Virus record (IMG/VR): IMGVR_UViG_3300035162_002243
Location: 1 to 64,000 of that record
DNA from: a virus
Direction: 5' to 3' (one strand)
Length of the DNA: 64,000 nucleotides
Below, one piece after another: positions 1-23,511 of the stretch. The notes under the pieces were generated by a model that saw nothing but the letters and a program-made list of their open reading frames with translations, made no database searches and was not told where the DNA came from. The stretch's first letter is position 1. Every line of letters begins with the position of its first letter. A program made the position numbers and the translations under genes.

Positions 1-51
1 GGGAGGTCGTTCGAAAAAGTCCAAGGATATCAAGAGGTTACGCCGGGGCCG

Positions 52-93
52 TTTTGCATACGTATGCAAGAGAACCTCCGCGCATCGGTAGTG
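52..93. repeat. 42-bp direct repeat, copy A, with 16-bp palindrome
   Basis: Copy A of a 42-bp element whose copy B is at 242-283; about 34 of 42 positions match. The core is the perfect palindrome TTGCATACGTATGCAA (54-69), followed at the same distance in both copies by GCATCGG. No coding sequence is supported here. It could be a protein-binding site, or an RNA hairpin in transcripts from the leftward promoters at 186-214 and 290-319. Confidence 0.75.
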
Positions 94-185
94 TTTGTCT
101 TCTACTTGCGGATTTCAGTAGCCCTAACCGTTTACCTTATTTTATTTTTTTAGTGTTTACCCTCTATTGCCTAACTGTTATATAC

Positions 186-214
186 AGTATACTATCGCTA
201 GCCACATTTGTCAA
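186..214 (-). promoter_or_regulatory. Leftward sigma70-type promoter
   Basis: On the minus strand, TTGACA (214-209), a 17-base spacer and TATACT (191-186), preceded by ATTAGGGG exactly as in the rightward early promoters. It fires out of the left edge of the window. The gene it serves is not visible; the 180 bases to the left edge hold only repeat copy A and no convincing start of a protein. Confidence 0.8.
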
Positions 215-241
215 CCCCTAATTGCCATTTTGTTTAAATCT

Positions 242-283
242 TTTTGCATACGTATGCAAGCGACCGTCCAGGCATCGGGAGCG
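242..283. repeat. 42-bp direct repeat, copy B, with 16-bp palindrome
   Basis: Copy B of the element at 52-93, with the identical palindrome TTGCATACGTATGCAA at 244-259. Its right edge coincides with the predicted transcription start of the leftward promoter at 290-319, so a transcript would begin with this element. A 12-codon minus-strand reading frame beginning inside the palindrome ends within the next leftward promoter; I do not call it a gene. Confidence 0.75.
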
Positions 284-289
284 TAGTTT

Positions 290-319
290 ATTATAACATA
301 TTTTTTTGAGGTTGTCAAC
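290..319 (-). promoter_or_regulatory. Leftward sigma70-type promoter
   Basis: Minus strand TTGACA (319-314), 18-base spacer, TATAAT (295-290). It reads left into repeat copy B and then into the second leftward promoter. It is divergent from the rightward promoter at 374-402. Confidence 0.75.
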
Positions 320-348
320 CATTTTTGGAGGTTAATTTTACCAAAAAA

Positions 349-402
349 TTTACAAAACGTTACAAAAGTATGCTTGCTAGTTTTGCTGTATTTTGCTATA
401 AT
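349..402 (+). promoter_or_regulatory. Upstream box plus promoter, copy 1
   Basis: TTTACAAAACGTTACAAAA (349-367), then TTGCTA (374-379), 17 bases, TATAAT (397-402). The same box recurs before three more small genes, always starting 25 bases before the -35 element, which puts it around -60 to -42, where an activator or an UP element would act. Confidence 0.8.
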
Positions 403-432
403 AGCTTTACATTAAACAAACAGGAAAAAACT

Positions 433-684
433 ATGCAAACATACAACAACGCTGTCGCAAACGTTATACAGCAATATGCCTCGCAAATTGCAAACTGCGC
501 ACAAGACAGCATAAATGAAAATAATGACTATTGTCTTATTGACAACTGTGCAAAAATAAAATTTTTGTTTACAAATAGCACTAGCTATACAACTATTCCG
601 CAACTTGCAAGCGCATGTTTAAACAGCAATATGGATACAGCAGTGCGGGAATGCATGTATAACTGTTTGCTGTATCCGCAATAA
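433..684 (+). CDS. Small hypothetical protein (83 aa), first of four tandem units
   Basis: I do not recognise this 83-aa protein. It is rich in Asn, Gln, Ala and Cys (seven cysteines) and has no membrane segment. The start at 433 is chosen because it follows AGGAAA at a normal distance and lies downstream of the promoter at 374-402; a longer frame from 325 would start upstream of that promoter. Codons are strongly A-ending (GCA, ACA, CAA), unlike the genes from 1731 on. It is the first of four promoter-plus-tiny-gene units between 349 and 1564, all with starts of the ATGCAAA or ATGCTAA type. The cysteines could bind metal, but no CxxC-type motif is clear. Function unknown. Confidence 0.6.
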   Translation: MQTYNNAVANVIQQYASQIANCAQDSINENNDYCLIDNCAKIKFLFTNSTSYTTIPQLASACLNSNMDTAVRECMYNCLLYPQ

Positions 685-685
685 C

Positions 686-739
686 TTTACAAAACGTTAC
701 AAAAGTATGCTTGCGCATTTTGTGCGCAAGTGTTATACT
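686..739 (+). promoter_or_regulatory. Upstream box plus promoter, copy 2
   Basis: TTTACAAAACGTTACAAAA (686-704), TTGCGC (711-716), 17 bases, TATACT (734-739). The -35 to spacer region also contains an inverted repeat, CTTGCGCA...TGCGCAAG, which looks like a repressor operator. The box begins immediately after the stop of the preceding gene. Confidence 0.8.
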
Positions 740-770
740 AGTTTTACATTAATTAAATAGGGGCACTGCT

Positions 771-950
771 ATGCTAAAAAACAAATTTGCATTTACAGTA
801 ATTAATTTTAATACGTTGCTAATTGTTAACAGTAACACAGGGGAGCAACGTTATGCAAACAATGTTACACTGCCGTCGCTGTATGCTGTAACACAAAAGC
901 AACTTGCAAAATTATTTAAAACTGCAACACATGCAGACGTTTGGTCTTAG
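771..950 (+). CDS. Small hypothetical protein (59 aa)
   Basis: A 59-aa frame that starts with ATG after AGGGGCAC and ends with TAG at 948-950, just before the next upstream box. Unknown function; no cysteine and no membrane segment, with a hydrophobic beta-like stretch near residues 6-19. A segment resembling NTLLIVN also occurs near the N-terminus of the fourth gene of this array (NTLIVTN), hinting at distant relationship. Support comes from its own promoter copy, an SD-like GGGGCA and tight packing between promoter units rather than from homology. Confidence 0.55.
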   Translation: MLKNKFAFTVINFNTLLIVNSNTGEQRYANNVTLPSLYAVTQKQLAKLFKTATHADVWS

Positions 951-954
951 TAAC

Positions 955-1008
955 TTTACAAAACGTTACAAAATAACGCTTGTGTATTTTATACGCAAGT
1001 GTTATAAT
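955..1008 (+). promoter_or_regulatory. Upstream box plus promoter, copy 3
   Basis: TTTACAAAACGTTACAAAA (955-973), TTGTGT (980-985), 17 bases, TATAAT (1003-1008). The imperfect inverted repeat CTTGTGTAT / ATACGCAAG covers the -35 and spacer. Confidence 0.8.
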
Positions 1009-1040
1009 AGTTTTACATTAATTAACAAAGTAAAAAAATT

Positions 1041-1229
1041 ATGCAAAACTTACAAGTGCATTATACGTACAAAACTAAAAACGCAATTATCTCAGACCTG
1101 TGCGTTGTACAAAGTAAAACAAAACGTTTTACAAAAACGCAACAACTTAACACGCAATTAAAACTTGCAAAGCAATTAAACTTAAAACATTTTTATGCTG
1201 TAACGCTTACACACTATTCTGTAGTGTAG
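1041..1229 (+). CDS. Small basic hypothetical protein (62 aa)
   Basis: A 62-aa Lys/Thr/Gln-rich basic protein of unknown function. The start at 1041 (ATGCAAAAC) lies about 25 bases after the predicted transcription start. There is no good Shine-Dalgarno sequence, only an A-rich stretch, so translation may be weak. Third member of the tandem promoter-gene array, with the same A-ending codon preference. Its basic character would suit nucleic acid binding, but there is no motif to support that. Confidence 0.5.
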   Translation: MQNLQVHYTYKTKNAIISDLCVVQSKTKRFTKTQQLNTQLKLAKQLNLKHFYAVTLTHYSVV

Positions 1230-1283
1230 TTTACAAAACTTTACAAAATAACGCTTGTGTATTTTATATGCAAGTGTTATAAT
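1230..1283 (+). promoter_or_regulatory. Upstream box plus promoter, copy 4
   Basis: TTTACAAAACTTTACAAAA (1230-1248, one change from the other copies), TTGTGT (1255-1260), 17 bases, TATAAT (1278-1283). The box-to-(-35) distance is again 25 bases. Confidence 0.8.
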
Positions 1284-1312
1284 AGTTTACAAACTAAAAA
1301 AAGGGCACTACT

Positions 1313-1564
1313 ATGCAAAACACTATTACTAGTACTAATACGCTAATTGTAACTAATCCTATTATGTCTCCGTTGTTTACTGCGCAACTAATAACTGTCG
1401 CAAGTTATAATAAACTTAACGCACAAACAAAAGCAGACATTAGTGTTTGTGCATATAGCAAGCAAGCATATTCTAACGCAATGTCTCAAAGTTATAACGC
1501 ACAAGCAAACGTCAATGTCGTTTACAATGTTACAAAAAACTTGTCTTATAGCATTGCAAATTAA
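1313..1564 (+). CDS. Small hypothetical protein (83 aa), last of the tandem units
   Basis: 83 aa, Asn/Ser/Thr/Ala-rich, unknown function. The start follows AAAGGGCACTACT, the GGGCA-type ribosome-binding sequence shared by the larger early region. The C-terminal half (YSKQAYSNAMSQ, YNAQANV) is polar and repetitive in character, with little predicted hydrophobic core. It has its own copy of the array promoter and is followed by a 20-bp palindrome rather than a clear terminator. Confidence 0.6.
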   Translation: MQNTITSTNTLIVTNPIMSPLFTAQLITVASYNKLNAQTKADISVCAYSKQAYSNAMSQSYNAQANVNVVYNVTKNLSYSIAN

Positions 1565-1580
1565 TTTAAACTAACTTAAA

Positions 1581-1610
1581 CGCAAGTGTTATGTTATAAC
1601 ATAACATTTG
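1581..1610. repeat. 20-bp perfect palindrome in a degenerate promoter copy
   Basis: TGTTATGTTATAACATAACA at 1587-1606 is a perfect palindrome; the flanks GCAAG/TTTGC nearly extend it to 30 bases. The left part (CGCAAGTGTTAT) matches the spacer/-10 region of promoter copies 2-4, so this looks like a fifth, rearranged copy. No T-run follows, so it is not a standard terminator; an operator is more likely. Confidence 0.6.
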
Positions 1611-1660
1611 CACCACCCTGTTTTCGTGCGACAAAATGCGGCTCGGGGCAGTCTTTTTAA

Positions 1661-1697
1661 ATTAGGGGTTGACAACCCAACATTGCGGTGCTATACT
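1661..1697 (+). promoter_or_regulatory. Early promoter 1 (TTAGGGG class)
   Basis: ATTAGGGG then TTGACA (1669-1674), 17 bases, TATACT (1692-1697), followed by TGTATATAC. First of eleven rightward promoters sharing this layout. Confidence 0.9.
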
Positions 1698-1730
1698 GTA
1701 TATACAAATTAGGCATTAGAGGAGCACACA

Positions 1731-1982
1731 ATGTCCACACAATTAAGAAACGTACCAAACTGCCACGCACAGAACGAATTGACCCAGACTAGGTTCTGGG
1801 GTGGCAAGAATCGTATGCAATGTGTACAGGTTACGCAACGCAAACCCAAATACGATACGGACGCCGGCGGTGACTTCTTTAATCATTTGCAATTGACCAA
1901 AGAGCAGGCTAAGAACTTGGCTGTGGAGTTGATGTTGTTTGCAGAAGATCGCGAAGTGACAGAGATGGAGGAGATGGAATGA
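1731..1982 (+). CDS. Conserved small phage protein (83 aa)
   Basis: 83 aa. It resembles a widespread small phage protein with the pattern QTRFWGGK...C(V/L)Q(V/L)TQ and a C-terminal stretch like F-x6-LTKEQAKNLAxEL (residues about 47-70), probably a helical hairpin. Function unknown. The start has a strong GAGGAG six bases upstream. The gene ends with ATGA, overlapping the next start, so the two are translationally coupled. From here on codon use is less A-rich and GC content is visibly higher than in the preceding tandem array. Confidence 0.8.
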   Translation: MSTQLRNVPNCHAQNELTQTRFWGGKNRMQCVQVTQRKPKYDTDAGGDFFNHLQLTKEQAKNLAVELMLFAEDREVTEMEEME

Positions 1983-2176
1983 ACACTGTAGAGCAGTATG
2001 CGGAAGAGAAGCAACGGGTAGTTGATGCAGTCCTAAAGGAGATCAAAGAGGATCTCGCCAATGGGGCCAACCAATCCGTCAAAGGTCTACTTATGTTGCT
2101 TCCAGTAGAGAAGCTCAAAGGCTATTTGACCGAAGAACAGATAAAGAAGATTAATTGGCAAACAATTTGTAATTAG
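1979..2176 (+). CDS. Small hypothetical protein (65 aa)
   Basis: A 65-aa charged, helical protein, coupled to the preceding gene through an ATGA overlap (1979-1982). The ribosome-binding sequence GGAGGAGATGGA lies inside the upstream gene. No recognised family. Its TAG stop is part of the TTAGGGGTTGACA block of the next promoter, so gene end and promoter are fused. Confidence 0.7.
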   Translation: MNTVEQYAEEKQRVVDAVLKEIKEDLANGANQSVKGLLMLLPVEKLKGYLTEEQIKKINWQTICN

Positions 2177-2208
2177 GGGTTGACAACTTGGCATTAGTTT
2201 GCTATAAT
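2172..2208 (+). promoter_or_regulatory. Early promoter 2 (TTAGGGG class)
   Basis: TTGACA (2180-2185), 17 bases, TATAAT (2203-2208). The TAG stop of the upstream gene (2174-2176) lies in its conserved 5' block. Confidence 0.9.
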
Positions 2209-2246
2209 GTATGTATAAGTTAAACAAAACGCAAGGGGCATTGCAC

Positions 2247-2549
2247 ATGAAATTTGTTATCTCAACTCAGTATTTAGAAAACTACGGCGCTCACTCAGAG
2301 GACGGCAAGTTCTCCAGTGGTAATGCGTACTGGAAGATGAAGGGTGGGAGCGATTACATCGTGTCCGGCCTAACACGAATCCAGGATGCGGTTGCATTCG
2401 TAATGGCCAAGTTCGGAGAGAACGATCTCTACGGCAAGGCGTTCCCCACAGCGTACCGCACGTTTGAACAGTGGGAGGACGAGTTGGAAGAGATGGACGG
2501 CGAGTATGCCGAGTTCCTCATAGGGCAGGCCAAGGAGGTGTGCCCATGA
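2247..2549 (+). CDS. Small hypothetical protein (100 aa)
   Basis: 100 aa, beginning MKFVISTQYLENYGAHSEDG; of a type seen in many phage genomes (an N-terminal beta strand followed by an ENYG-like turn), function unknown. The ATG at 2247 is preferred over an in-frame ATG at 2211, because 2211 lies right at the promoter and 2247 follows AAGGGGCA. It ends in ATGA overlapping the next gene, and the region just upstream of that overlap supplies AAGGAGG as its ribosome-binding site. Confidence 0.75.
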   Translation: MKFVISTQYLENYGAHSEDGKFSSGNAYWKMKGGSDYIVSGLTRIQDAVAFVMAKFGENDLYGKAFPTAYRTFEQWEDELEEMDGEYAEFLIGQAKEVCP

Positions 2550-2809
2550 GCAAGGAACATTTGGCCGATGTGGCCGCGCTGGCAGAGAACGCTATCATCT
2601 ACATTCAGCATGACAGCGGCCAGGCCGACTACGAGAGCATGCGGATCATAACCAGCATGTCCGAAGAGAACTATTTCCTAGCTGAAGGCGAGGAGACTGG
2701 TGAACAGTATCAAATTGAATATGCTGATGTGGACCTAGAGAACGATACCTTCTACCGCTTGCAGAAGATGGACAACGAATCTCCATTACTTTACAATCAG
2801 GGATATTAG
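2546..2809 (+). CDS. Small acidic hypothetical protein (87 aa)
   Basis: 87 aa, strongly acidic, unknown function. The start at 2546 is defined by AAGGAGG inside the preceding gene and by the ATGA overlap. Its TAG stop (2807-2809) is embedded in the next promoter. It could be an inhibitor or DNA mimic on charge alone, but nothing in the sequence proves it. Confidence 0.7.
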   Translation: MSKEHLADVAALAENAIIYIQHDSGQADYESMRIITSMSEENYFLAEGEETGEQYQIEYADVDLENDTFYRLQKMDNESPLLYNQGY

Positions 2810-2841
2810 GGGTTGACAAGACTGCAAGACGATAGTATAAT
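2805..2841 (+). promoter_or_regulatory. Early promoter 3 (TTAGGGG class)
   Basis: TTGACA (2813-2818), 17 bases, TATAAT (2836-2841), followed by GTATATAC. It overlaps the stop codon of the upstream gene. Confidence 0.9.
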
Positions 2842-2873
2842 GTATATACACAATTAGGAAAAGGGCAAACAAC

Positions 2874-3131
2874 ATGATAGACTACAGAGATTTCGCAATT
2901 GAACTAACCGAAGATATGGGTTTCTCCACAGAGCAGATGCTAGTGGCGGCGCTGAAGTGGATGTCACAGGACGATGTCAAGGGCATGCTAGAAGCTAACG
3001 AGTATCCTATGAGCTGTGAAGAGGACGATGAGGTCGAAGACTTTGCACCTCCGAGCACTAGGGTCAAAGCTGAGGCTGATCGAGTATTTGGAGCTGTGGC
3101 TGATCGAATATTTGGATCTAATGCAATTTAG
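2874..3131 (+). CDS. Small acidic hypothetical protein with C-terminal 8-residue tandem repeat
   Basis: 85 aa, unknown function. The first 45 residues are a helical, acidic domain; an acidic linker follows. The C-terminus carries two copies of an 8-residue unit (ADRVFGAV, ADRIFGSN) encoded by a 24-base tandem duplication (3074-3092 and 3098-3116, one mismatch). The start follows AAGGGCAAACAAC. Its TAG stop lies inside the next promoter. The repeat looks recent and may vary between related phages. Confidence 0.75.
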   Translation: MIDYRDFAIELTEDMGFSTEQMLVAALKWMSQDDVKGMLEANEYPMSCEEDDEVEDFAPPSTRVKAEADRVFGAVADRIFGSNAI

Positions 3132-3163
3132 GGGTTGACAAGCCAGCACTCCGGTGCTATACT
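3127..3163 (+). promoter_or_regulatory. Early promoter 4 (TTAGGGG class)
   Basis: TTGACA (3135-3140), 17 bases, TATACT (3158-3163), then GTATATAC. The upstream stop TAG is at 3129-3131. Confidence 0.9.
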
Positions 3164-3200
3164 GTATATACATTAACAACATAGATAAGGGCTACACACT

Positions 3201-3674
3201 ATGGGAACTAGATCAACTATCGCAATGAAGACTGAAGAAGGTAAGCTACGGACCATCTATTGTCACTGGGACGGCTACGTAGACCACAACGGTCGCATCC
3301 TACTTAATAACTACACAACCCCAGAGAAGGTTAAGGCACTCATCGACTTAGGTGACTTGAGCCAGCTGAGCACTGAGGTAGGTGATGTGCGCACGTTTGG
3401 CATTGATGGCCAAGGTGAGCAACCAGAGCTTCCAATGTTTGGTAACTGGTGTACAGCATACCACAGAGACCGAGGCGAGGACTGGACCAACGTTGCACCA
3501 CAGACGTTCGACAATGCCCAAGAGATGGTAGAGCACTATGCAGAGGCTTGGTGCGAGTTCTTTTACATCTTCAATGGCCAGGACTGGTTAGTCAGCAACG
3601 GCAAGAAGGACGCCAAGGGTTATCCAATCTTCGATTATGTCGAAGTAGCCATCCTAGAAGAAATTGTAGGATAA
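3201..3674 (+). CDS. Conserved phage protein, MGTRS-type (157 aa)
   Basis: 157 aa, with the N-terminal signature MGTRSTIAMKTEEG...IYCHWDGYVDHNG, a widespread phage and plasmid family with no assigned function; I recognise the family but not an activity. The conserved CHWDGY block (residues about 20-26) followed by an AL-x-LGDLS motif is characteristic. Single promoter, start behind AAGGGCTACACACT. Probably expressed early. Confidence 0.85.
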   Translation: MGTRSTIAMKTEEGKLRTIYCHWDGYVDHNGRILLNNYTTPEKVKALIDLGDLSQLSTEVGDVRTFGIDGQGEQPELPMFGNWCTAYHRDRGEDWTNVAPQTFDNAQEMVEHYAEAWCEFFYIFNGQDWLVSNGKKDAKGYPIFDYVEVAILEEIVG

Positions 3675-3683
3675 GGCAAATAA

Positions 3684-3716
3684 AAGGTTGACAGTGTAGC
3701 ATTGCGGTGCTATACT
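3684..3716 (+). promoter_or_regulatory. Early promoter 5
   Basis: TTGACA (3688-3693), 17 bases, TATACT (3711-3716), then GTATATAC. The 5' block is degenerate (AAAAGG instead of TAGGGG). Confidence 0.9.
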
Positions 3717-3748
3717 GTATATACATTAACAAACAAAGGGCAAACAAT

Positions 3749-4054
3749 ATGACACAGAAAACTTTTAGCGTAGCAGGCACTAGCACCAATAACGGCATTA
3801 CGAAGATTCGATTCGCAAATGACTTTGTAGGTCGCTTGAAGATCCTCTACAAGAACGGACACGAGAACGTGGAACTGATGGAGTTGGGACGTGAGCTGAC
3901 CAAGGCACAGATATGCCAAGTGTTGATGAGCCATCCTAAGTACCAAACAGATGAGCAACAAGATGCCATCTACGAATTCGTCCTACGCAACTGCAAAGAG
4001 ATCAAAGCAGAGATCATGGAAGTGATCGACTCCAAAGAAGAAATTGAGGCCTAA
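3749..4054 (+). CDS. Small hypothetical protein (101 aa)
   Basis: 101 aa, unknown function, with a beta-rich N-terminal half and a charged helical C-terminus. The ATG at 3749 is chosen over an in-frame ATG at 3707 that lies upstream of the promoter -10. The ribosome-binding sequence is AAAGGGCAAACAAT. It is followed by the tRNA-Arg gene, so both may be on the same transcript from promoter 5. Confidence 0.7.
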   Translation: MTQKTFSVAGTSTNNGITKIRFANDFVGRLKILYKNGHENVELMELGRELTKAQICQVLMSHPKYQTDEQQDAIYEFVLRNCKEIKAEIMEVIDSKEEIEA

Positions 4055-4070
4055 GGCCTAACCCAAGTAC

Positions 4071-4147
4071 GTCTCCTTAGCTCAGCTGGATAGAGCAACA
4101 GCCTTCTAAGCTGTAGGTCGCAGGTTCGAATCCTGCAGGGGACGCCA
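4071..4147 (+). tRNA. tRNA-Arg (anticodon TCT)
   Basis: A complete 77-nt cloverleaf: acceptor GTCTCCT/AGGGGAC, D-stem GCTC/GAGC, anticodon stem ACAGC/GCTGT with loop CTTCTAA (anticodon TCT), T-arm GCAGG-TTCGAAT-CCTGC, and an encoded CCA end. It reads AGA codons (and AGG with wobble), which AT-rich phage genes use more than most hosts do. Confidence 0.95.
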
Positions 4148-4161
4148 ATCAAGTTGTCGGG

Positions 4162-4203
4162 CGGCGAAGCAAGGTTGTGCCCTCATCCTAGAAGACTTCG
4201 TCG
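4162..4203 (+). ncRNA. Hairpin with GUGCCCUC loop downstream of the tRNA
   Basis: An 8-bp stem (4162-4169 with 4196-4203, one G-U) encloses a loop in which AGG/CCU pairing leaves exactly UUGUGCCCUCAU unpaired (4175-4186). The same 12 bases recur in the loop of a hairpin at 5872-5904. The loop is complementary to the GAGGGCA-type ribosome-binding sequence of nearby early genes. Whether it is a separate RNA or the 3' end of the tRNA transcript is not visible. Confidence 0.5.
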
Positions 4204-4226
4204 TCCAGCGGCGCAATTAGTTTTAA

Positions 4227-4263
4227 ATTAGGGGTTGACAAGTACCGCAGAACTTGCTATAAT
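4227..4263 (+). promoter_or_regulatory. Early promoter 6 (TTAGGGG class)
   Basis: TTGACA (4235-4240), 17 bases, TATAAT (4258-4263), then GTATGTATAAG as in promoter 2. Confidence 0.9.
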
Positions 4264-4298
4264 GTATGTATAAGTTAAACAAAACAAGGGCAAACAAA

Positions 4299-4502
4299 AT
4301 GATAAAAACAATTATAACAGGTACAGTGGTAGCAGGTTTATTTGGAATCGTAGCATATGCGGGCGTAGGCGCAATTATGTTACCTGATGTTGAAATGAGT
4401 TATGAGACTGGTTACTGCACTAAGGTGATCAACTATGCTCAGGGCGATGCTTACAACTGCGAGAACATGCCTATCAAGTTCAACCATGTGTGGGTGAAGT
4501 AA
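4299..4502 (+). CDS. Small exported or membrane protein (67 aa)
   Basis: 67 aa with an N-terminal hydrophobic segment at residues about 4-27 (ITGTVVAGLFGIVAYAGVGA) followed by a short polar part with two cysteines, consistent with a membrane-anchored or exported peptide whose cysteines could pair in the periplasm. The ATG at 4299 follows CAAGGGCAAACAAA; an upstream in-frame ATG at 4266 lies within the promoter. Ends one base before the next gene. Function unknown. Confidence 0.65.
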   Translation: MIKTIITGTVVAGLFGIVAYAGVGAIMLPDVEMSYETGYCTKVINYAQGDAYNCENMPIKFNHVWVK

Positions 4503-4503
4503 G

Positions 4504-4752
4504 ATGGTAAAGACTTGGATGTTGTTAACATTGTTTACTGCGGATCCGATCATGTATGCGGACCAACAGACTTGTGAGGTCGCTATGTCGAAGTTGAACA
4601 CTGCGTACCCAGAGAACGAAAGCATATGTATCCCAGCTGGTATCCAGGAAGTGTCAAAGGATCCAATTGAGTTGTTTGAACAGATGTTGAACATGGTTAC
4701 GGAGATGAATATTAATTTAAATAATCCTCCAAAAGTGGTTGACAACAACTAG
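4504..4752 (+). CDS. Small hypothetical protein (82 aa)
   Basis: 82 aa, unknown. It starts one base after the TAA of the preceding gene, so it is probably translated by coupling; GTGAAG lies just upstream. The hydrophobic N-terminus (residues 5-12) is short and may be a weak export signal; two cysteines. The 3' end contains promoter 7. With the preceding gene it may form a two-component envelope pair, by position only. Confidence 0.6.
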   Translation: MVKTWMLLTLFTADPIMYADQQTCEVAMSKLNTAYPENESICIPAGIQEVSKDPIELFEQMLNMVTEMNINLNNPPKVVDNN

Positions 4753-4767
4753 ATAATTTGTTATAAT
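4733..4767 (+). promoter_or_regulatory. Early promoter 7, inside the 3' end of the preceding gene
   Basis: TTGACA (4739-4744), 17 bases, TATAAT (4762-4767). The 5' block is AAAGTGG rather than TAGGGG. Confidence 0.85.
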
Positions 4768-4814
4768 AGTAATACGAAATAAGGCAGTACTAATTAACAC
4801 AAAGGGCAAAACAC

Positions 4815-5819
4815 ATGAAGATTAGAATACTTGAAGGCACATATAAGATCCGTGGTAAAGATGTAGAACTAGCAGGAATGGTCTTTCCACTAGTAGAAGG
4901 TTTCAAAGTTGGAGCCAAAGGCGGATACGTAACCGTAGATGGTAAGAGCATCCAAGGGTTTCCAGATCGTAACATTAAAATCACATGCGAAGGTGAACAT
5001 GCATATGAAAGCTGTGCAGAAGGCACAGCAACAACCATCCGTGAAGAGACGGATGAAGAGACCATCGAAAGACTGCGTGAGCGATTTGACATGTTAGAAG
5101 ACATGACACGTGCCACAAAGAAAGGCGATGTTCGAGCTATGATTGTATCAGGACCTCCGGGTGTTGGTAAGAGTCATGGTGTAGAGAAGGTACTTGGTAA
5201 GCACGATCTAATAGCCACGCTAGGCGATCGACCTGCGAAGTACGAAGTTGTCAAAGGTGCTATGTCCGCAATTGGACTCTACTGTAAGCTGTACAAGATG
5301 GCAGACAAAGACAATGTGATTGTATTCGATGACTGTGATTCAATATTCAGCGATGAGCTATCGTTAAACATATTGAAGGCCGCGCTAGACTCTAAGAAGA
5401 CTAGACGCATATGCTGGAACACAGACTCGTTCAAGTTGCGCAATGAAGGTGTGCCTGATGCATTTGAATTCAAAGGATCAGCAATCTTTATCACCAACAT
5501 CAAGTTCGACAACGTTAAGTCGGCTAAGATGCGTGATCACCTAACTGCACTTGAGTCACGTTGTCACTATATCGATCTAGCAATTGACACAGACAGAGAG
5601 AAAATGTTACGTATAAAGCAGATTACCAATGATGGTATGCTTGACAACTATAAACTAGATGAAGAAACCATACAAGACATTGTGGACTTCATTGACATTA
5701 ATAAGAAGAGACTGCGTGAACTGTCATTACGTACAGTACTTAAAGTAGCCGACTTGGCCAAGGCATTCCCAACTAAATGGGAAGCTATGGCAGAGAACAC
5801 TGTGATGCGTCGAGCATAA
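4815..5819 (+). CDS. AAA+ ATPase (334 aa)
   Basis: AAA-family ATPase. The Walker A GPPGVGKS is at residues 113-120 and the Walker B VIVFDDCD around 168-174; sensor-like FITNIKFDN follows, and the C-terminal part is an alpha-helical lid. The N-terminal 100 residues form a separate domain, unlike any I recognise. Similar stand-alone ATPases occur in marine T4-like phages; the substrate is unknown. It is the largest protein of the rightward early region, starts behind AAAGGGCAAAACAC and has a dedicated promoter. It is not gp44 (clamp loader). Its 3' untranslated region folds into the candidate RNA at 5821-5953. Confidence 0.85.
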   Translation: MKIRILEGTYKIRGKDVELAGMVFPLVEGFKVGAKGGYVTVDGKSIQGFPDRNIKITCEGEHAYESCAEGTATTIREETDEETIERLRERFDMLEDMTRATKKGDVRAMIVSGPPGVGKSHGVEKVLGKHDLIATLGDRPAKYEVVKGAMSAIGLYCKLYKMADKDNVIVFDDCDSIFSDELSLNILKAALDSKKTRRICWNTDSFKLRNEGVPDAFEFKGSAIFITNIKFDNVKSAKMRDHLTALESRCHYIDLAIDTDREKMLRIKQITNDGMLDNYKLDEETIQDIVDFIDINKKRLRELSLRTVLKVADLAKAFPTKWEAMAENTVMRRA

Positions 5820-5820
5820 C

Positions 5821-5953
5821 GCTCCGCTGAACAGTGGGACTAGCTGACGCCCTGTTAGCAGTCCAAACAGGTAGTAGAAGTTTTGTGCCCTCATGCATCT
5901 ACTATCGAACCTGAGCCCTACTAGTGTGCCCTCGCTAGTAGGGCTTTCTTTTA
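5821..5953 (+). ncRNA. Candidate three-hairpin regulatory RNA with GCCCU loops
   Basis: Three consecutive hairpins follow the ATPase stop: 5837-5864 (loop GACGCCCUGUU), 5872-5904 (7-bp stem, loop containing GUGCCCUC at 5885-5892) and 5915-5944 (10-bp stem, GUGCCCUC at 5926-5933 in the loop, then a U-rich tail). All three loops expose GCCCU. The loops are complementary to the GGGCA sequence that serves as ribosome-binding site for most early genes of this region. This would suit a 3'-UTR-derived small RNA acting on phage mRNAs; expression and targets are inferred. No promoter of its own was found. Confidence 0.5.
5915..5953 (+). terminator. Rho-independent terminator
   Basis: Perfect 10-bp stem GCCCTACTAG/CTAGTAGGGC with a 10-base loop, followed by TTTCTTTTA. 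It ends the ATPase transcript and forms the last hairpin of the candidate RNA. Confidence 0.9.
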
Positions 5954-5958
5954 TCTAA

Positions 5959-5995
5959 ATTAGGGGTTGACAACCGTTCTAGTGTGTGCTATAAC
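5959..5995 (+). promoter_or_regulatory. Early promoter 8 (TTAGGGG class)
   Basis: TTGACA (5967-5972), 17 bases, TATAAC (5990-5995). Confidence 0.85.
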
Positions 5996-6027
5996 TAGTA
6001 TATAGAAACACAGTAAGGGCAAACACA

Positions 6028-6225
6028 ATGACACAGAATTTAAACGTACACTTTGTAAACCGCGGATACGGAACAGACGACGGTGTTAAGACAGTAGAGC
6101 TAGTTAAGTTAGACATATATGAGCGCACAGGCCAACCTATGGCGGCTGTTAAAAGCCCATACTTCCCCGGCGATACATTGGTTGCAATGTTTGAAAACAA
6201 TGAATGGTTGTGTGACTTAGATTAA
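6028..6225 (+). CDS. Small hypothetical protein (65 aa)
   Basis: 65 aa, predicted mostly beta (alternating hydrophobic residues, a GDTLVAMF-like strand), no recognised family. Start behind TAAGGGCAAACACA, single promoter. It ends at TAA directly before the ATTAGGGG block of promoter 9. Confidence 0.7.
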   Translation: MTQNLNVHFVNRGYGTDDGVKTVELVKLDIYERTGQPMAAVKSPYFPGDTLVAMFENNEWLCDLD

Positions 6226-6261
6226 TTAGGGGTTGACAACCCTGCGTAATGATAGTATAAT
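6225..6261 (+). promoter_or_regulatory. Early promoter 9 (TTAGGGG class)
   Basis: TTGACA (6233-6238), 17 bases, TATAAT (6256-6261), then GTATATAC. Nearly identical to promoter 3. Confidence 0.9.
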
Positions 6262-6293
6262 GTATATACAAACTAAGCAAAAGGGCAAAGCAT

Positions 6294-6602
6294 ATGAATT
6301 ATCTTACAGTAGACGTTTACCGTAGCGCAGGCATTGATTGCACCAACAATGGTGTGACCAGTGAAACATCACCAACTTTCGTTGTTCCTTGTGAGCACGG
6401 ACCAATCAGCGGTGACTGGGCAGAGGAGCAGGAGTATGTGATCCTAGTTCCTGGAACAGCTGGCAACAGGATGCACATGAAACCACAAGGTGTTAGCGGA
6501 CACACCATGTTTGGTGGTAACTTTGTTTACACCAGTGACAGCCGCTTTGGTGAACTGTATGGTAGCCACCCAATCCATGTACATGATAGAATTGAAAATT
6601 AG
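6294..6602 (+). CDS. Small hypothetical protein (102 aa)
   Basis: 102 aa, beta-rich with several histidines near the C-terminus (GSHPIHVHD). No family recognised; the central GDWAEEQEYVILVPGTAGNRMHMKPQG region looks like a compact barrel fold. Start after AAAGGGCAAAGCAT. Its TAG stop (6600-6602) is inside promoter 10. Confidence 0.7.
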   Translation: MNYLTVDVYRSAGIDCTNNGVTSETSPTFVVPCEHGPISGDWAEEQEYVILVPGTAGNRMHMKPQGVSGHTMFGGNFVYTSDSRFGELYGSHPIHVHDRIEN

Positions 6603-6634
6603 GGGTTGACATCGGCCACAAAAGGCTGTATAAT
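6598..6634 (+). promoter_or_regulatory. Early promoter 10 (TTAGGGG class)
   Basis: TTGACA (6606-6611), 17 bases, TATAAT (6629-6634). The leader to the next gene is longer (about 50 bases). Confidence 0.9.
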
Positions 6635-6690
6635 ACATAGTATATTAAGTAAGAAACTTAATACTTTTTTATAACTTGAGGGCAAACAAC

Positions 6691-6942
6691 ATGGCAACAT
6701 TAATTAAGCGTTACGGAATGTTCACTACAAATGGCAACAAGATGGTAGGCCGCATTGCAGAGGCAGGCAAGAAGCTGGCCGCTGAAGATGGCTGTGGCAA
6801 GAACGCATGGGCATTCGCATACAGGGAACTGCAGAAGTTATCCTATGCAAAGGACTTTGAAGAGTGTACTGACACTGATGTGCGTGAGCAGGTGTTCAGC
6901 TATGTGACTGCTGACTATCCAACAAGTAATTTTTACATCTAA
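6691..6942 (+). CDS. Small hypothetical protein (83 aa)
   Basis: 83 aa, alpha-helical, unknown. The ATG at 6691 follows TGAGGGCAAACAAC; a longer frame from 6676 would skip this ribosome-binding site. The AKDFEECTDTDVREQVFSYV part suggests a helical bundle. No partner evident. Confidence 0.7.
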   Translation: MATLIKRYGMFTTNGNKMVGRIAEAGKKLAAEDGCGKNAWAFAYRELQKLSYAKDFEECTDTDVREQVFSYVTADYPTSNFYI

Positions 6943-6946
6943 ATGA

Positions 6947-6979
6947 GAGGTTGACAGCGTACCTCAAACGCTGTATACT
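6947..6979 (+). promoter_or_regulatory. Early promoter 11
   Basis: TTGACA (6951-6956), 17 bases, TATACT (6974-6979). Serves the last two genes of the rightward early region. Confidence 0.9.
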
Positions 6980-7015
6980 ATAAGAGTAAGTTAATTAAAC
7001 ATTCGAGGGCATCAA

Positions 7016-7273
7016 ATGAATATACAACTAGAAGCATATGTAGCACAAAAGAACAGCTGGAACGCTATCTTCGGAGGCACACCACTAGACCTAAACAACG
7101 CAGAGGACCGTGTAAAGATTGCTGATATGATCGACTGTGATCTATCGCCAGAGAACCTAGCATGTGATGGCGAAGCAAGCCCACAACATGTACGCACACA
7201 GGGCCGCATGCTACGTGACTGCGCTCGTCAGTTACTAGCAATTGACTCAACTGTAACCATATATGAACTGTAG
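7016..7273 (+). CDS. Small hypothetical protein (85 aa)
   Basis: 85 aa, helical, acidic, with an NAEDRVKIADMIDCDLSPENLACDGEAS motif resembling proteins that appear in many phages next to small early genes; function unknown. Start after CGAGGGCATCAA. Followed within 11 bases by the next gene, which has GGGAGAA as ribosome-binding site, so the two form an operon. Confidence 0.7.
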   Translation: MNIQLEAYVAQKNSWNAIFGGTPLDLNNAEDRVKIADMIDCDLSPENLACDGEASPQHVRTQGRMLRDCARQLLAIDSTVTIYEL

Positions 7274-7283
7274 GGAGAACACT

Positions 7284-7643
7284 ATGAACACACTAACTGT
7301 ATCAAACGTTAATGAATACACTGTGGAAGACATCACTAACATCCTAGCTGAAGCCAAGCAGGAAGCACGTGACGCGGCAGTACAACATCTAAGCCTACAT
7401 GGTGAGCAGGCCTACTGTGGCTTTGCTTGGGTCAACATATGGAAGATCAAAGGCAACACCAAGCTGGGCAAGCGCATGAAGAGTGCAGGACTAAGCAAAG
7501 ACTACTCAGGTGCATACAACATATGGAACCCTTCAACACTAGGGACACAGTGTATGAGCACTAAGGAAGCGGGTGCCCGAGCATGTGCTAGTGTGTTTAA
7601 GAAGTACGGCTTTGAATGTAGCGCAGGATCAAGAGCAGACTAA
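7284..7643 (+). CDS. Conserved hypothetical protein (119 aa)
   Basis: 119 aa. Middle segment CGFAWVNIWKIKGNTKLGKRMKSAGLSKDYSGAYNIWNP (residues about 48-86) is a pattern I associate with small conserved phage proteins; function unknown. The start at 7284 follows GGGAGAACACT; the upstream in-frame ATG at 7263 lies inside the preceding gene. Last gene before the strong terminator at 7676-7710. Confidence 0.75.
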   Translation: MNTLTVSNVNEYTVEDITNILAEAKQEARDAAVQHLSLHGEQAYCGFAWVNIWKIKGNTKLGKRMKSAGLSKDYSGAYNIWNPSTLGTQCMSTKEAGARACASVFKKYGFECSAGSRAD

Positions 7644-7710: not shown

Positions 7711-8002
7711 GTGCTAATAAAATAAAATAAAAAAAATTTCTCGAGGGGCGGGGCGTAATAGTCAATATTATAATAACACTTTTTTACTAGCTAATGGTTG
7801 TAAATCACCACCTCACTTCTGTAAGTACTTCACCAGTATTTTTTGCGCGGCAATTTTTTTAAGAGTGCAGGACCCATTTCGGCCTAAACAACAAACAGTG
7901 AGTGCAAACGAACTGTAGATAGAATCGTAGATTCTTTCTCATACTACTACGCTAGTGTTAGTTACGCACACTATCTTATAGTTACTAATACAATAGTGTT
8001 AG
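7711..8002. other. Non-coding gap between convergent gene groups
   Basis: About 290 bases without a supported gene. It holds an A-rich stretch (7715-7738), a GC-rich island CGAGGGGCGGGGCG (7742-7755), and one copy of a 15-base repeat TAGTGTTAGTTACGC (7953-7967); the second copy at 7994-8008 overlaps the end of the leftward gene. No promoter with a good -35/-10 pair was found on either strand. Confidence 0.6.
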
Positions 8003-21040: not shown

Positions 21041-21715
21041 TTAAGTTCGCTCATTCCATGCCTTTAAGTCTTCAGGTGAATTAATTTCAATGCCATTAAA
21101 TTCTACACAACTGCAACCTATATCCCAACCAGCTTTAAGCCAACGCAACTGTTCTAGTTTTTCAACCTGTTCTTCTTGTGTAACTTCCATGCCTCTATAG
21201 AATAGTAACGGATTGCGTTTGTATCCGTAAACTCCTAAATGCCAATGTCCGTATCCAGTTAGTCCTCTACCAAACCACAGAGCTTTGTCACCAGCACGTA
21301 CCATCTTAACCGAGTTAGGATCGTCTTGCATTGCTTTAGGCATTTCTGCGTATACTGTGCTTATTTGATAATACTTGAGCCATTCTACACAACGTTCAAT
21401 CATTTGTAGTGTTACGTCAGGCATATCGCCTTGTACATTAATAAATTGATCGTACTCATTAAAGAAGTCGTTCTGTATTGCGCCTGCAACACGCTCTGTG
21501 CCGTTGTCGTACTCTTTTTGGTCAATCCAACATTTATCCGAACCAAACAAATTAAAGATACGCATGTCATCAGTAAGCACATATGTTGGTATCTTAGACG
21601 CAACACAAGCGTCATACACACGTTTAATCATAGGAACGCCATCTAACATAGCTAGTGGCTTTCCAGGAAAGCGTGTGCTTGCATACCTAGCAGGTATAAG
21701 GATAGCAGTATTCAT
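21041..21715 (-). CDS. kdsB: CMP-Kdo synthetase (3-deoxy-manno-octulosonate cytidylyltransferase, 224 aa)
   Basis: Activates Kdo with CTP to CMP-Kdo, donor for lipopolysaccharide core and capsule. Signatures: IPARYASTRFPGKPL (residues 7-21, CTP-binding loop), NGTERVA (about 71-77), NVQGDMP (metal/CTP site) and a C-terminal EKLEQLRWL. 224 aa compared with about 245 usual. Overlaps hemE by four bases (ATGA). The kdsA gene sits two genes upstream, so the phage supplies two consecutive-pathway enzymes of Kdo activation; the phosphatase KdsC and the isomerase KdsD are not seen in the window. Confidence 0.92.
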   Translation of the reverse strand: MNTAILIPARYASTRFPGKPLAMLDGVPMIKRVYDACVASKIPTYVLTDDMRIFNLFGSDKCWIDQKEYDNGTERVAGAIQNDFFNEYDQFINVQGDMPDVTLQMIERCVEWLKYYQISTVYAEMPKAMQDDPNSVKMVRAGDKALWFGRGLTGYGHWHLGVYGYKRNPLLFYRGMEVTQEEQVEKLEQLRWLKAGWDIGCSCVEFNGIEINSPEDLKAWNERT

Positions 21716-22689
21716 TTAAATCGCTCCCTTACCATATCTACAAACAGCTTTACATTTTCTTCAGGTGTAGTTTTTTGGATGCCGTGACCAAGTCCACATA
21801 TCCATCCTGTACGATCAACAGTTTCCATTTTATCTAAAAACAAATTAATTTCTTTCCTGCATTCCATAGTCGATGATAGTAGCATTAACTTTTCATCAAA
21901 GTTGCCCTGTACAAATCCAGTTGTGTACTTTTTCATAGTTTTTGTAATATCAACTCCGCTATCAATGCCAATTCCCTTCCATTCCATTTTAAGTAAAGAA
22001 GGCATACATTTAGGATTTAAATGCTGTGTATAATATCCAACGTTGGCCATTATCATAGACTGTAATAATTCTTTGTAATGATCTTTAAAGAACCCTTCAC
22101 TCATATTACCTACACCGCTATCAAGTATCATAACTTTTTCAGCGCCTGCTCGTAACTGTAAATGTATATTACGGTTCAGCAACGGAATAATAACTTCACG
22201 CAAGTATTCTACTTTAAACTTAGTACTTGTTTTTTGTTTACCAGTTGCATAATTTAATAGTGTCCACGGACCGCCTACAAATCCAATAAGACTTTTGTTA
22301 GAAGGCAACATTTCTTTTGTTGCAGTAATAGCACGACTTTGAAAATCCATATGTTCAATTGCGGCTTCTACATCCATGTGATTTTTATAATTCTCTTCTG
22401 TAAGTAGCCATTCAAACTTTGGACCCGGGTCAAACTTTAGAGGAATACCTAATCCTTCAATAGGAAAAAGTATGTCACTAAAAAGTATTGCAATGTCAAA
22501 ATCAAATTGGTTAATTGGTAGCATTGCAACCTCTGCGGCTACTTTAGGCAACTTACACATTTGTTCAAATGTAAAATTTTGCTTTAGTTCCATGTAACCT
22601 TTTTGATATCGTCCGGCCTGCCGCATCATCCAAATTGGAGGAGTTGGCTGTTCTACTCTGTTACAAGCATTTTCAAATAGTTTATTCAT
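21712..22689 (-). CDS. hemE: Uroporphyrinogen decarboxylase-like protein (325 aa)
   Basis: Matches HemE, which decarboxylates uroporphyrinogen III to coproporphyrinogen III in haem and chlorophyll synthesis. Signatures: PIWMMRQAGRYQ (residues 18-29, both substrate-binding Arg), FDIAILFSDIL (about 63-73, catalytic Asp), FVGGPWTLLNYATG (the conserved Tyr) and the C-terminal GLGHGIQKTTPEENV (conserved His). Length 325 aa compared with about 350. Full motif set argues for an active enzyme. It lies between kdsB and kdsA with short overlaps. Haem enzymes are rare in phages; the benefit is unclear. Confidence 0.88.
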   Translation of the reverse strand: MNKLFENACNRVEQPTPPIWMMRQAGRYQKGYMELKQNFTFEQMCKLPKVAAEVAMLPINQFDFDIAILFSDILFPIEGLGIPLKFDPGPKFEWLLTEENYKNHMDVEAAIEHMDFQSRAITATKEMLPSNKSLIGFVGGPWTLLNYATGKQKTSTKFKVEYLREVIIPLLNRNIHLQLRAGAEKVMILDSGVGNMSEGFFKDHYKELLQSMIMANVGYYTQHLNPKCMPSLLKMEWKGIGIDSGVDITKTMKKYTTGFVQGNFDEKLMLLSSTMECRKEINLFLDKMETVDRTGWICGLGHGIQKTTPEENVKLFVDMVRERFK

Positions 22690-23461
22690 ATTGATATTTA
22701 ACTATATCTGCTACTACTTTTTCAAAGTCATCTAGTCGTAACATGTTAGGTCCGTCACTTGGTGCATTGTCCGGGTTAGGGTGTACTTCTAGAAAGAAAT
22801 TCCTAATACCCAAAGCACTACCTGCGCGACATAGACCAGGAACGTAATCCCTATTGCCACCGCTACTGCTTCCGTTGCCGCCAGGTTTCTGTACGCTGTG
22901 TGTGGCATCAAGTACAACAGGATAATCATAATTATTAAGCATGTAGTCCAAGCCAGTAAAATCAACGACCAAAGTATTATATCCAAAACTAGTTCCTCTC
23001 TCGGTTATCCAAACCTCTTTAGCACCTTCTGTCTTAGTTAATATACCCTTCATATCCCACGGTGCAAGGAACTGTCCTTTTTTAATATTAACAATCTTAT
23101 CTGTTTCACAAGCCGCTTGTAACAAGTCAGTTTGTCTACAAAGGAATGCAGGAATTTGTAATACATCTACACACTCATTAAAGTACGTTGTGATCATTTC
23201 AATTTGATCAATATCGTGTACATCTGTTAGTGTTTTAACACCATGCACTTCTTTAATTAGCTTAAAGTCATTTAGAGTGTTAGCAAGTCCTACACCTCGT
23301 TTATTACCTAGGCTAGAACGATTTGCTTTATCGAAACTTGCTTTAAAGATATATTCTACACCGTGTTTGTCGCATATTGCTTTACACTTCTCTGCAATAT
23401 GTGATGACTGACTTAATGACTCATGCTGGCACGGTCCTGCTATAATTCTCAGTTGATACAT
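22682..23461 (-). CDS. kdsA: Kdo-8-phosphate synthase (259 aa)
   Basis: Condenses phosphoenolpyruvate with arabinose-5-phosphate to Kdo-8-phosphate. Signatures: AGPCQHES (residues 8-15), KASFDKANRSS (40-50), TDVHDIDQ, DVLQIPAFLCRQTDLL, KKGQFLAPWDM, TERGTSFGYNTLVVD, DATHSVQKPGG and EVHPNPDNAPSDGPNML: the complete family set. 259 aa is slightly short of the usual 280. The start at 23461 follows AAAGGAAAAACAA; a longer frame to 23506 runs through a hairpin region and lacks a ribosome-binding site. Overlaps hemE by eight bases. Confidence 0.95.
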   Translation of the reverse strand: MYQLRIIAGPCQHESLSQSSHIAEKCKAICDKHGVEYIFKASFDKANRSSLGNKRGVGLANTLNDFKLIKEVHGVKTLTDVHDIDQIEMITTYFNECVDVLQIPAFLCRQTDLLQAACETDKIVNIKKGQFLAPWDMKGILTKTEGAKEVWITERGTSFGYNTLVVDFTGLDYMLNNYDYPVVLDATHSVQKPGGNGSSSGGNRDYVPGLCRAGSALGIRNFFLEVHPNPDNAPSDGPNMLRLDDFEKVVADIVKYQYE

Positions 23462-23488
23462 TTGTTTTTCCTTTATAAGAAGCAGTGG

Positions 23489-23511
23489 CGAGTGTGGCAT
23501 TGCCACACTCG
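23489..23511. repeat. Perfect 11-bp inverted repeat upstream of kdsA
   Basis: CGAGTGTGGCA (23489-23499) and TGCCACACTCG (23501-23511) separated by one base. It would form a very stable hairpin in the mRNA between the H1-like gene and kdsA. No T-run follows on either strand, so it is more likely an mRNA-processing or attenuation element than a terminator. Confidence 0.6.

Follow-up and report, generated by a model that had tools for sequence, protein, structure and literature searches.

The locus described here raises the question of what an RNA might do whose hairpin loops are complementary to the ribosome-binding sites of many genes of the same phage. The stretch analysed (the window, 64,000 nucleotides) is contained in a 66.3 kb virus record from an uncultured T4-like jumbo phage, and it encodes homologues of T4 type for terminase, gp32, UvsX/RecA, gp15 and tail sheath, with the terminase 54% identical to those of the Pseudomonas phages Paride/PA5oct. 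Small early genes fill the plus strand from 1 to 7640, most with their own TTGACA-17-TATAAT promoter, and the late genes lie mainly on the opposite strand; the labels early and late are inferred from promoters, gene size and homology and are not based on expression. Between 330 and 1300, a promoter cassette CTTTACAAAACGTTACAAAA..GCTTGTGTATTTTATACGCAAGTGTTATAATAGTTTTACATTAATTA is repeated before the first small genes and differs from the later TTGACA promoters. A preliminary description had pointed to three hairpins behind an AAA+ ATPase gene, each exposing GCCCU, and had proposed that the loops either pair with early ribosome-binding sites or serve as binding sites for a protein with affinity for the leaders too. 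The features concerned are:

4739..4767, plus strand: sigma-70-type promoter of the ATPase gene, TTGACA-17-TATAAT, 12/12
4815..5819, plus strand: AAA+ ATPase gene, T4 NrdC.10-like (phrog_1250), with its own leader AAGGGCA
5837..5864, plus strand: predicted hairpin 1, loop GCCCU at 5849-5853
5870..5906, plus strand: predicted hairpin 2, loop GUGCCCUC at 5885-5892
5913..5946, plus strand: hairpin 3, an intrinsic terminator of 14 pairs, loop UGCCCU within GUGCCCUC at 5926-5933

Folding of positions 5821-5955 confirms all three hairpins, at -54.6 kcal/mol and z = -5.0, with none of 200 shuffles equally good; the last of them, with a stem of 14 pairs, is a terminator, as described. GCCCU is exposed in each, as described, with mean unpaired probabilities of 0.85, 0.93 and 1.00 in hairpins 1, 2 and 3, and the full GUGCCCUC is indeed carried by two loops, those of hairpins 2 and 3 only, the loop of hairpin 1 being GCCCUGU with five matching bases. 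If the fold starts at 5804 with the last ATPase codons free, hairpin 2 is open about half the time (0.49). The sequence GTGCCCTC occurs three times in the 64 kb, always on the plus strand and always in a hairpin loop; 0.72 copies are expected, and three are reached in 1 of 100 shuffles. We found no strong separate promoter for the RNA within the ATPase reading frame, and the promoter at 4739..4767 presumably serves the RNA as well. Searches of Rfam at gathering and relaxed thresholds brought only tRNA to threshold and assigned the hairpins to no known RNA family.

The sequences before the early start codons that could pair with these loops are:

761..765, plus strand: GGGCA before start codon 771
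1303..1307, plus strand: GGGCA before start codon 1313
2236..2240, plus strand: GGGCA before start codon 2247
2863..2867, plus strand: GGGCA before start codon 2874
3188..3192, plus strand: AGGGC(U) before start codon 3201
3738..3742, plus strand: GGGCA before start codon 3749
4288..4292, plus strand: GGGCA before start codon 4299
4804..4808, plus strand: GGGCA before the ATPase start codon 4815
6017..6021, plus strand: GGGCA before start codon 6028
6283..6287, plus strand: GGGCA before start codon 6294
6680..6684, plus strand: GGGCA part of GAGGGCA before start codon 6691
7007..7011, plus strand: GGGCA part of GAGGGCA before start codon 7016, eight pairs with GUGCCCUC

The claim of GGGCA, or nearly so, before twelve early starts holds, with GGGC in 12/12 and GGGCA in 11/12, start 3201 having GGGCU. 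The 6-8 consecutive pairs proposed for loop and leader are right at the upper end and too high at the lower, the actual range being 5 to 8: the leader of 7016 forms eight, that of 3201 forms five plus two across a bulge, and most window leaders read AAGGGCA and form six, one pair short, with the window loops unchanged. The early genes starting at 1041, 1731, 1979, 4504 and 7284 have no leader motif, and the gene at 2547 has it at too great a distance, inside an upstream gene, together with a strong AAGGAGG of its own. Against the 13 upstream stretches that bear GGGC (2547 included), the GUGCCCUC octamer reaches a mean of -11.5 kcal/mol and the 16S anti-SD -5.9, compared with -4.2 for the loop and -5.0 for the anti-SD against the 46 late leaders of the window. 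When all early leaders are set against the late ones, loop energies differ (p 3e-7) and anti-SD energies do not (p 0.43), which indicates that the loops are specific to the early class. The late genes of the window have ordinary GGAG or AGGAG-type Shine-Dalgarno sequences, and an RGGGC leader precedes only 3 of the 102 ORFs after position 8000.

With the ATPase as query we obtained 80 loci, and more through two diverged queries, giving 98 distinct loci for analysis. The window's ATPase belongs to a clade of 66 rows (SH-aLRT 97), and in nearly all of its 66 members a multi-hairpin RNA with GCCCUC loops lies right behind the ATPase stop; the loops are kept across about 66 lineages. No GCCCUC hairpins follow the ATPase in the clades outside (L059-L081 without L077, L135, L136, L141-L164 and L190-L199). 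Within the folded 3' UTRs of the relatives, 115 of 133 copies of GCCCU fall in loops, and the mean unpaired probability is 0.83 for GCCCUC versus 0.24 for other GC-rich hexamers, a difference whose p-value of 1e-64 overstates the case because the sequences are related. The unselected measure of loop conservation is the hairpin count, in which the motif occupies the loop of 134 of the 190 hairpins with at least six pairs in the 3' UTRs of 66 loci, versus 2 of 795 in random windows from the same loci. The stems of the TGTGCCCTCG-type hairpins, a set chosen by loop and not by stem, so that loop invariance within it arises by construction, covary with a score of 0.658 versus 0.201 +/- 0.021 for shuffled and no more than 0.19 for slid alignments, and 144 cells are compensated (both sides changed) versus 59. 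Orientation is strict, with 177 copies of GCCCTC and none of GAGGGC in the 3' UTRs. Moreover, the hexamer is borne by several loop scaffolds, namely UGCCCU closed by G-C, CCGCCCUCA, AUGCCCUC and AAGCCCUCAC; the conserved element is therefore the hexamer and not one loop fold, which favours base pairing over a protein. The hairpin RNA is thus real, conserved and structured, and it is probably functional.

In loci with the RNA, the ATPase stop codon and the first GCCCUC are often adjacent (UAGCCCUC, UAAGCCCUC; for example L002 at 7000, L014 at 4331 and L037 at 973), and the hexamer then sits in a hairpin built with the last ATPase codons, such as GAGCGU..ACGCUC. Exact GGATGTGCCCTCGTCC matches in places without the ATPase (L083-L085, L094, L095, L097, L103, L106, L107 and L111) were set aside, as GAGGGC leaders are scarce or missing around them and the matches appear coincidental.

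The leaders of the same loci carry the complement. GAGGGC is the top hexamer upstream of ORFs where the RNA is present (255 of 828 ORFs), and RGGGC leaders precede 331 of those 828 ORFs versus 14 of 284 where it is absent. The consensus is an A-rich stretch followed by GAGGGCA and then ATG, with a gap of 4.9 +/- 1.8 nt to the ATG and a distance of 23 +/- 5 nt from the -10 box; since its position follows the ATG and not the -10 box, the motif belongs to the ribosome-binding site and not to the promoter. Promoter-linked leaders show GAGGGC 353 times and GCCCTC never. On whole contigs of 83-357 kb, GAGGGC..ATG matches concentrate around the ATPase region (in G001, 13 forward matches versus one in the reversed-text control), and 10 to 25 early genes per genome retain the motif despite large divergence. 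Outgroup leaders have AAGGAGCAC or similar at the same place, of the ordinary GGAG type, and alternative leader-loop pairs considered for the clades that lack the RNA were rejected, their GGAGCA leaders having no complementary hairpins nearby. The ATPase's own leader keeps GGGC in nearly all loci with the RNA, L043, L051 and L167 among them, and has lost it in L045/L077. In the nearest clade without the RNA (L059-L081, for example L065 near 5980), AAAGGGCACA occurs before the ATPase only, possibly as the ancestral site from which the motif of the early class spread.

On the tree, the RNA and the leader motif arise on the same single branch; their association is therefore one event and not a replicated correlation, and we found no independent gains or losses of the RNA, with the exception of L048, in which it is hidden by an insertion. 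There, a GIY-YIG-like reading frame (2192-2809, minus strand) lies between the ATPase stop and the RNA and is missing from the sister L047; the end of the ATPase is repeated at the new junction, and neither the RNA nor its loops are disrupted. No compensatory change between loop and leader, named as a check in the preliminary description, emerged: the core hexamer hardly varies, and the flanking bases of loops and leaders are uncorrelated between loci (Spearman 0.18, p 0.22, and 0.22, p 0.13). About five members (L043, L045/L077, L167/L168) keep the RNA with leaders that are mostly GAGGAGC, AGGAGAU or GAGGGA, and in L051 the loops are degenerate and only a few leaders are available for a count.

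A second GCCCUC hairpin, missed in the preliminary description, follows the tRNA genes of the window:

4071..4147, plus strand: tRNA-Arg (TCT), upstream of the second GCCCUC RNA
4148..4215, plus strand: tRNA-trailer hairpin, loop GUGCCCUC at 4177-4184

Among 37 loci that have both the RNA and a tRNA cluster, GCCCTC appears in 15 no more than 80 nt downstream of the final tRNA; for 14 of these it falls in a predicted hairpin loop, and the hairpin occurs whichever tRNA ends the cluster. The hexamer is therefore tied to a second transcript that is unrelated to the ATPase. The closest copies of the window's trailer hairpin are in L171 (3816) and L186 (3138), and further hairpins at the ends of tRNA clusters lie in L008 (1779), L031 (4655), L011 (1954), L044 (4350), L050 (4313), L179 (4732) and L009 (5872). 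Further early hairpins or terminators, built as GGGAGG-CGCCCUCGUAGAAAGG-CCUCCC-U-run, likewise expose GCCCUC, in L021 (5278), L009 (3542), L031 (1069), L057 (1343) and L020 (789).

We believe that these RNAs probably act as phage antisense RNAs that occlude early ribosome-binding sites through loop pairing, with the late genes escaping. The ATPase mRNA 3' untranslated region would be, or would be processed into, a stable multi-hairpin RNA exposing GCCCUC, each loop of which could pair with the GAGGGCA-type site before the start codons of most early genes, the ATPase included. Such pairing would cover the ribosome-binding site, so that early translation may be damped or shut off as a class while late genes with AGGAG-type sites are spared, and the tRNA-cluster hairpin would add to the RNA pool. 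At the sequence and structure level, this reading has strong support from conservation across about 66 lineages, from the one-sided orientation of both motifs (177:0 and 353:0) and from the tie of the leader motif to the ATG, and is further backed by the absence of both RNA and leader motif from the outgroups and by the ordinary Shine-Dalgarno sequences of late genes. We infer that the RNA accumulates, pairs in the cell and represses. Since RNA and targets share an early promoter type, the first effect would be feedback on early expression, followed, if the RNA is stable, by later shut-off; for a late switch the RNA would have to accumulate or be stable. A six-nucleotide loop closed by G-C may have to open before six to eight bases can pair.

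That the loops act chiefly in cis, with the ATPase 3' UTR pairing with the ATPase leader on the same or another copy and lowering ATPase, and with the other early leaders descended from, or tuned to, the same ribosome-binding cassette, seems unlikely to us. The RNA always lies directly 3' of the ATPase, and the persistence of GGGC in the ATPase leader, both in L043, L051 and L167, whose remaining leaders have mostly drifted, and (as AAAGGGCACA) in the nearest clade without the RNA, would allow autoregulation to have been the oldest function. However, 10 to 25 other genes per locus retain the motif across large divergence, L045/L077 have the RNA without the motif at the ATPase, and the hairpin behind the tRNAs is unlinked to that gene. 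We consider it distinctly improbable that the loops mimic the 16S anti-SD and capture host mRNAs or translation factors, leading to host shut-off with the match to phage leaders as a side effect. CCCUC does overlap the anti-SD core CCUCC, so that GAGG-type host sites would be expected to pair; yet the conserved hexamer is GCCCUC and not CCUCC, the phage leaders match the additional GC part that is dispensable for the ribosome, and the phage's own early genes would be hit hardest.

Slightly more improbable again is a positive role, in which the RNA protects or licenses early mRNAs, for example against a nuclease that cuts Shine-Dalgarno sequences. RNA and targets would be co-expressed from like promoters, and T4 RegB cuts GGAG in early Shine-Dalgarno sequences (PMC3014915), a tetramer that GAGGGC lacks, but six to eight pairs covering a site 3 to 8 nt away from the ATG should keep the 30S subunit from binding, and the A-rich leaders are probably unstructured and offer no inhibitory structure to open. 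The other proposal of the preliminary description, that one protein, a regulator of transcription or translation, recognises both loops and leaders as DNA or RNA, is disfavoured to the point of being very hard to credit. Both motifs are short and almost invariant, as such sites might be, but loops and leaders are complements and not copies, their strand asymmetry is strict, the hexamer is presented on different scaffolds and the leader motif keeps its place relative to the ATG, not the promoter.

The proposed occlusion of ribosome-binding sites by pairing with loops has counterparts in bacteria. The alpha-r14/NfeR1 sRNAs of Rhizobiales (SmelA075, SmelA099) form three to four hairpins with the same anti-SD motif in each loop, have variable stems and redundant loops, and prevent translation from starting (PMC3927594, PMC10746234); repression of translation by redundant anti-SD loops was shown experimentally for NfeR1 (PMC10746234) and LhrC (PMC4132741). 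The phage RNA likewise repeats one motif in the unpaired loops of several hairpins whose stems diverge, and it would probably work in the same way, by pairing at the initiation region. It differs in that its loops are GCCCUC, not CCUCCUCCC, without an Rfam match, and in that alpha-r14/NfeR1 are chromosomal and target ordinary Shine-Dalgarno sequences of metabolic genes, whereas the phage RNA is an ATPase 3' UTR whose putative targets share a private variant in one temporal gene class. LhrC of Listeria and RNAIII, RsaE and SprD of Staphylococcus pair multi-copy C-rich UCCC loops, the terminator loop included, with G-rich Shine-Dalgarno sequences (PMC4132741), but these serve bacterial stress or virulence with few targets and no target motif across a gene class, and UCCC is not conserved in the phage RNA, which with its GCCCUC would act alike without being a member. 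In phages P1/P7, the c4 antisense RNA (like sar in P22) uses complementary loops to block a phage ribosome-binding site (review PMC12197685); it has one target, the ant antirepressor mRNA, in lysogeny control, whereas the window RNA has complementary sites before about a dozen early genes, and the c4 covariance model of Rfam does not match the phage hairpins.

CsrB/RsmZ sponge RNAs also repeat one loop motif over many hairpins, and they copy the GGA of mRNAs and thereby soak up the protein CsrA. The loops of the phage RNA, in contrast, are the complement of the mRNA motif, GCCCUC and not GGA. In T4, RegA switches off early genes post-transcriptionally and acts at the Shine-Dalgarno or start region. 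RegB contributes to post-transcriptional early-gene switch-off by its cleavage of GGAG in early Shine-Dalgarno sequences (PMC3014915). RegA and RegB are proteins, whereas the control proposed here is by RNA; the RegA family (PF01818) was not found in six large contigs with the RNA and was found in the control phage Acj9, and the corresponding search for RegB recovered no control.

We would give even chances to a broader proposal, that GAGGGCA, taking the place of GGAG, labels the early genes of a whole jumbo phage clade as a private Shine-Dalgarno code, addressed for class-wide control by GCCCUC-loop RNAs. These would comprise the ATPase 3' UTR, the tRNA-cluster trailer and some early terminators, and as part of this proposal they would be the RNA counterpart of T4 RegA/RegB. 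The proposed mechanism is akin to that of multi-loop anti-SD sRNAs, but in our literature searches we found no precedent for such an RNA in a phage or for the regulon-wide private target motif. To our knowledge, most phage sRNAs described so far act on a single target or a few. In this clade, the regulon itself carries the target side, in that 10 to 25 early genes per genome complement the loops and late genes do not. If the proposal is true, a large group of uncultured jumbo phages would exert post-transcriptional control of the early class by RNA, and would offer both a natural example of a dedicated SD/anti-SD pair and a design with which several genes could be controlled together in the laboratory.

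Among cultured relatives none was found with the RNA; the nearest isolates are Paride and PA5oct (ATPase 46%, terminase 54%), in which the next gene starts 44 nt after the ATPase, and 50,697 phage records gave no DNA match. A search of cellular genomes for the host returned only four MAG contigs, and since these are filed under different groups and are probably mis-binned, we name no host. L205 (PBPT01000016.1, 335 kb, filed under a Neomarinimicrobiota MAG) carries an 81% identical ATPase and is probably a mis-binned jumbo phage genome. Finally, the minus strand of the window carries genes of heme and KDO metabolism between 21044 and 23506, namely a cytidylyltransferase gene, probably KdsB (21044-21715), a URO-D/HemE gene (21715-22689) and a gene for a DAHP_synth_1-family protein, probably KdsA (22685-23506).
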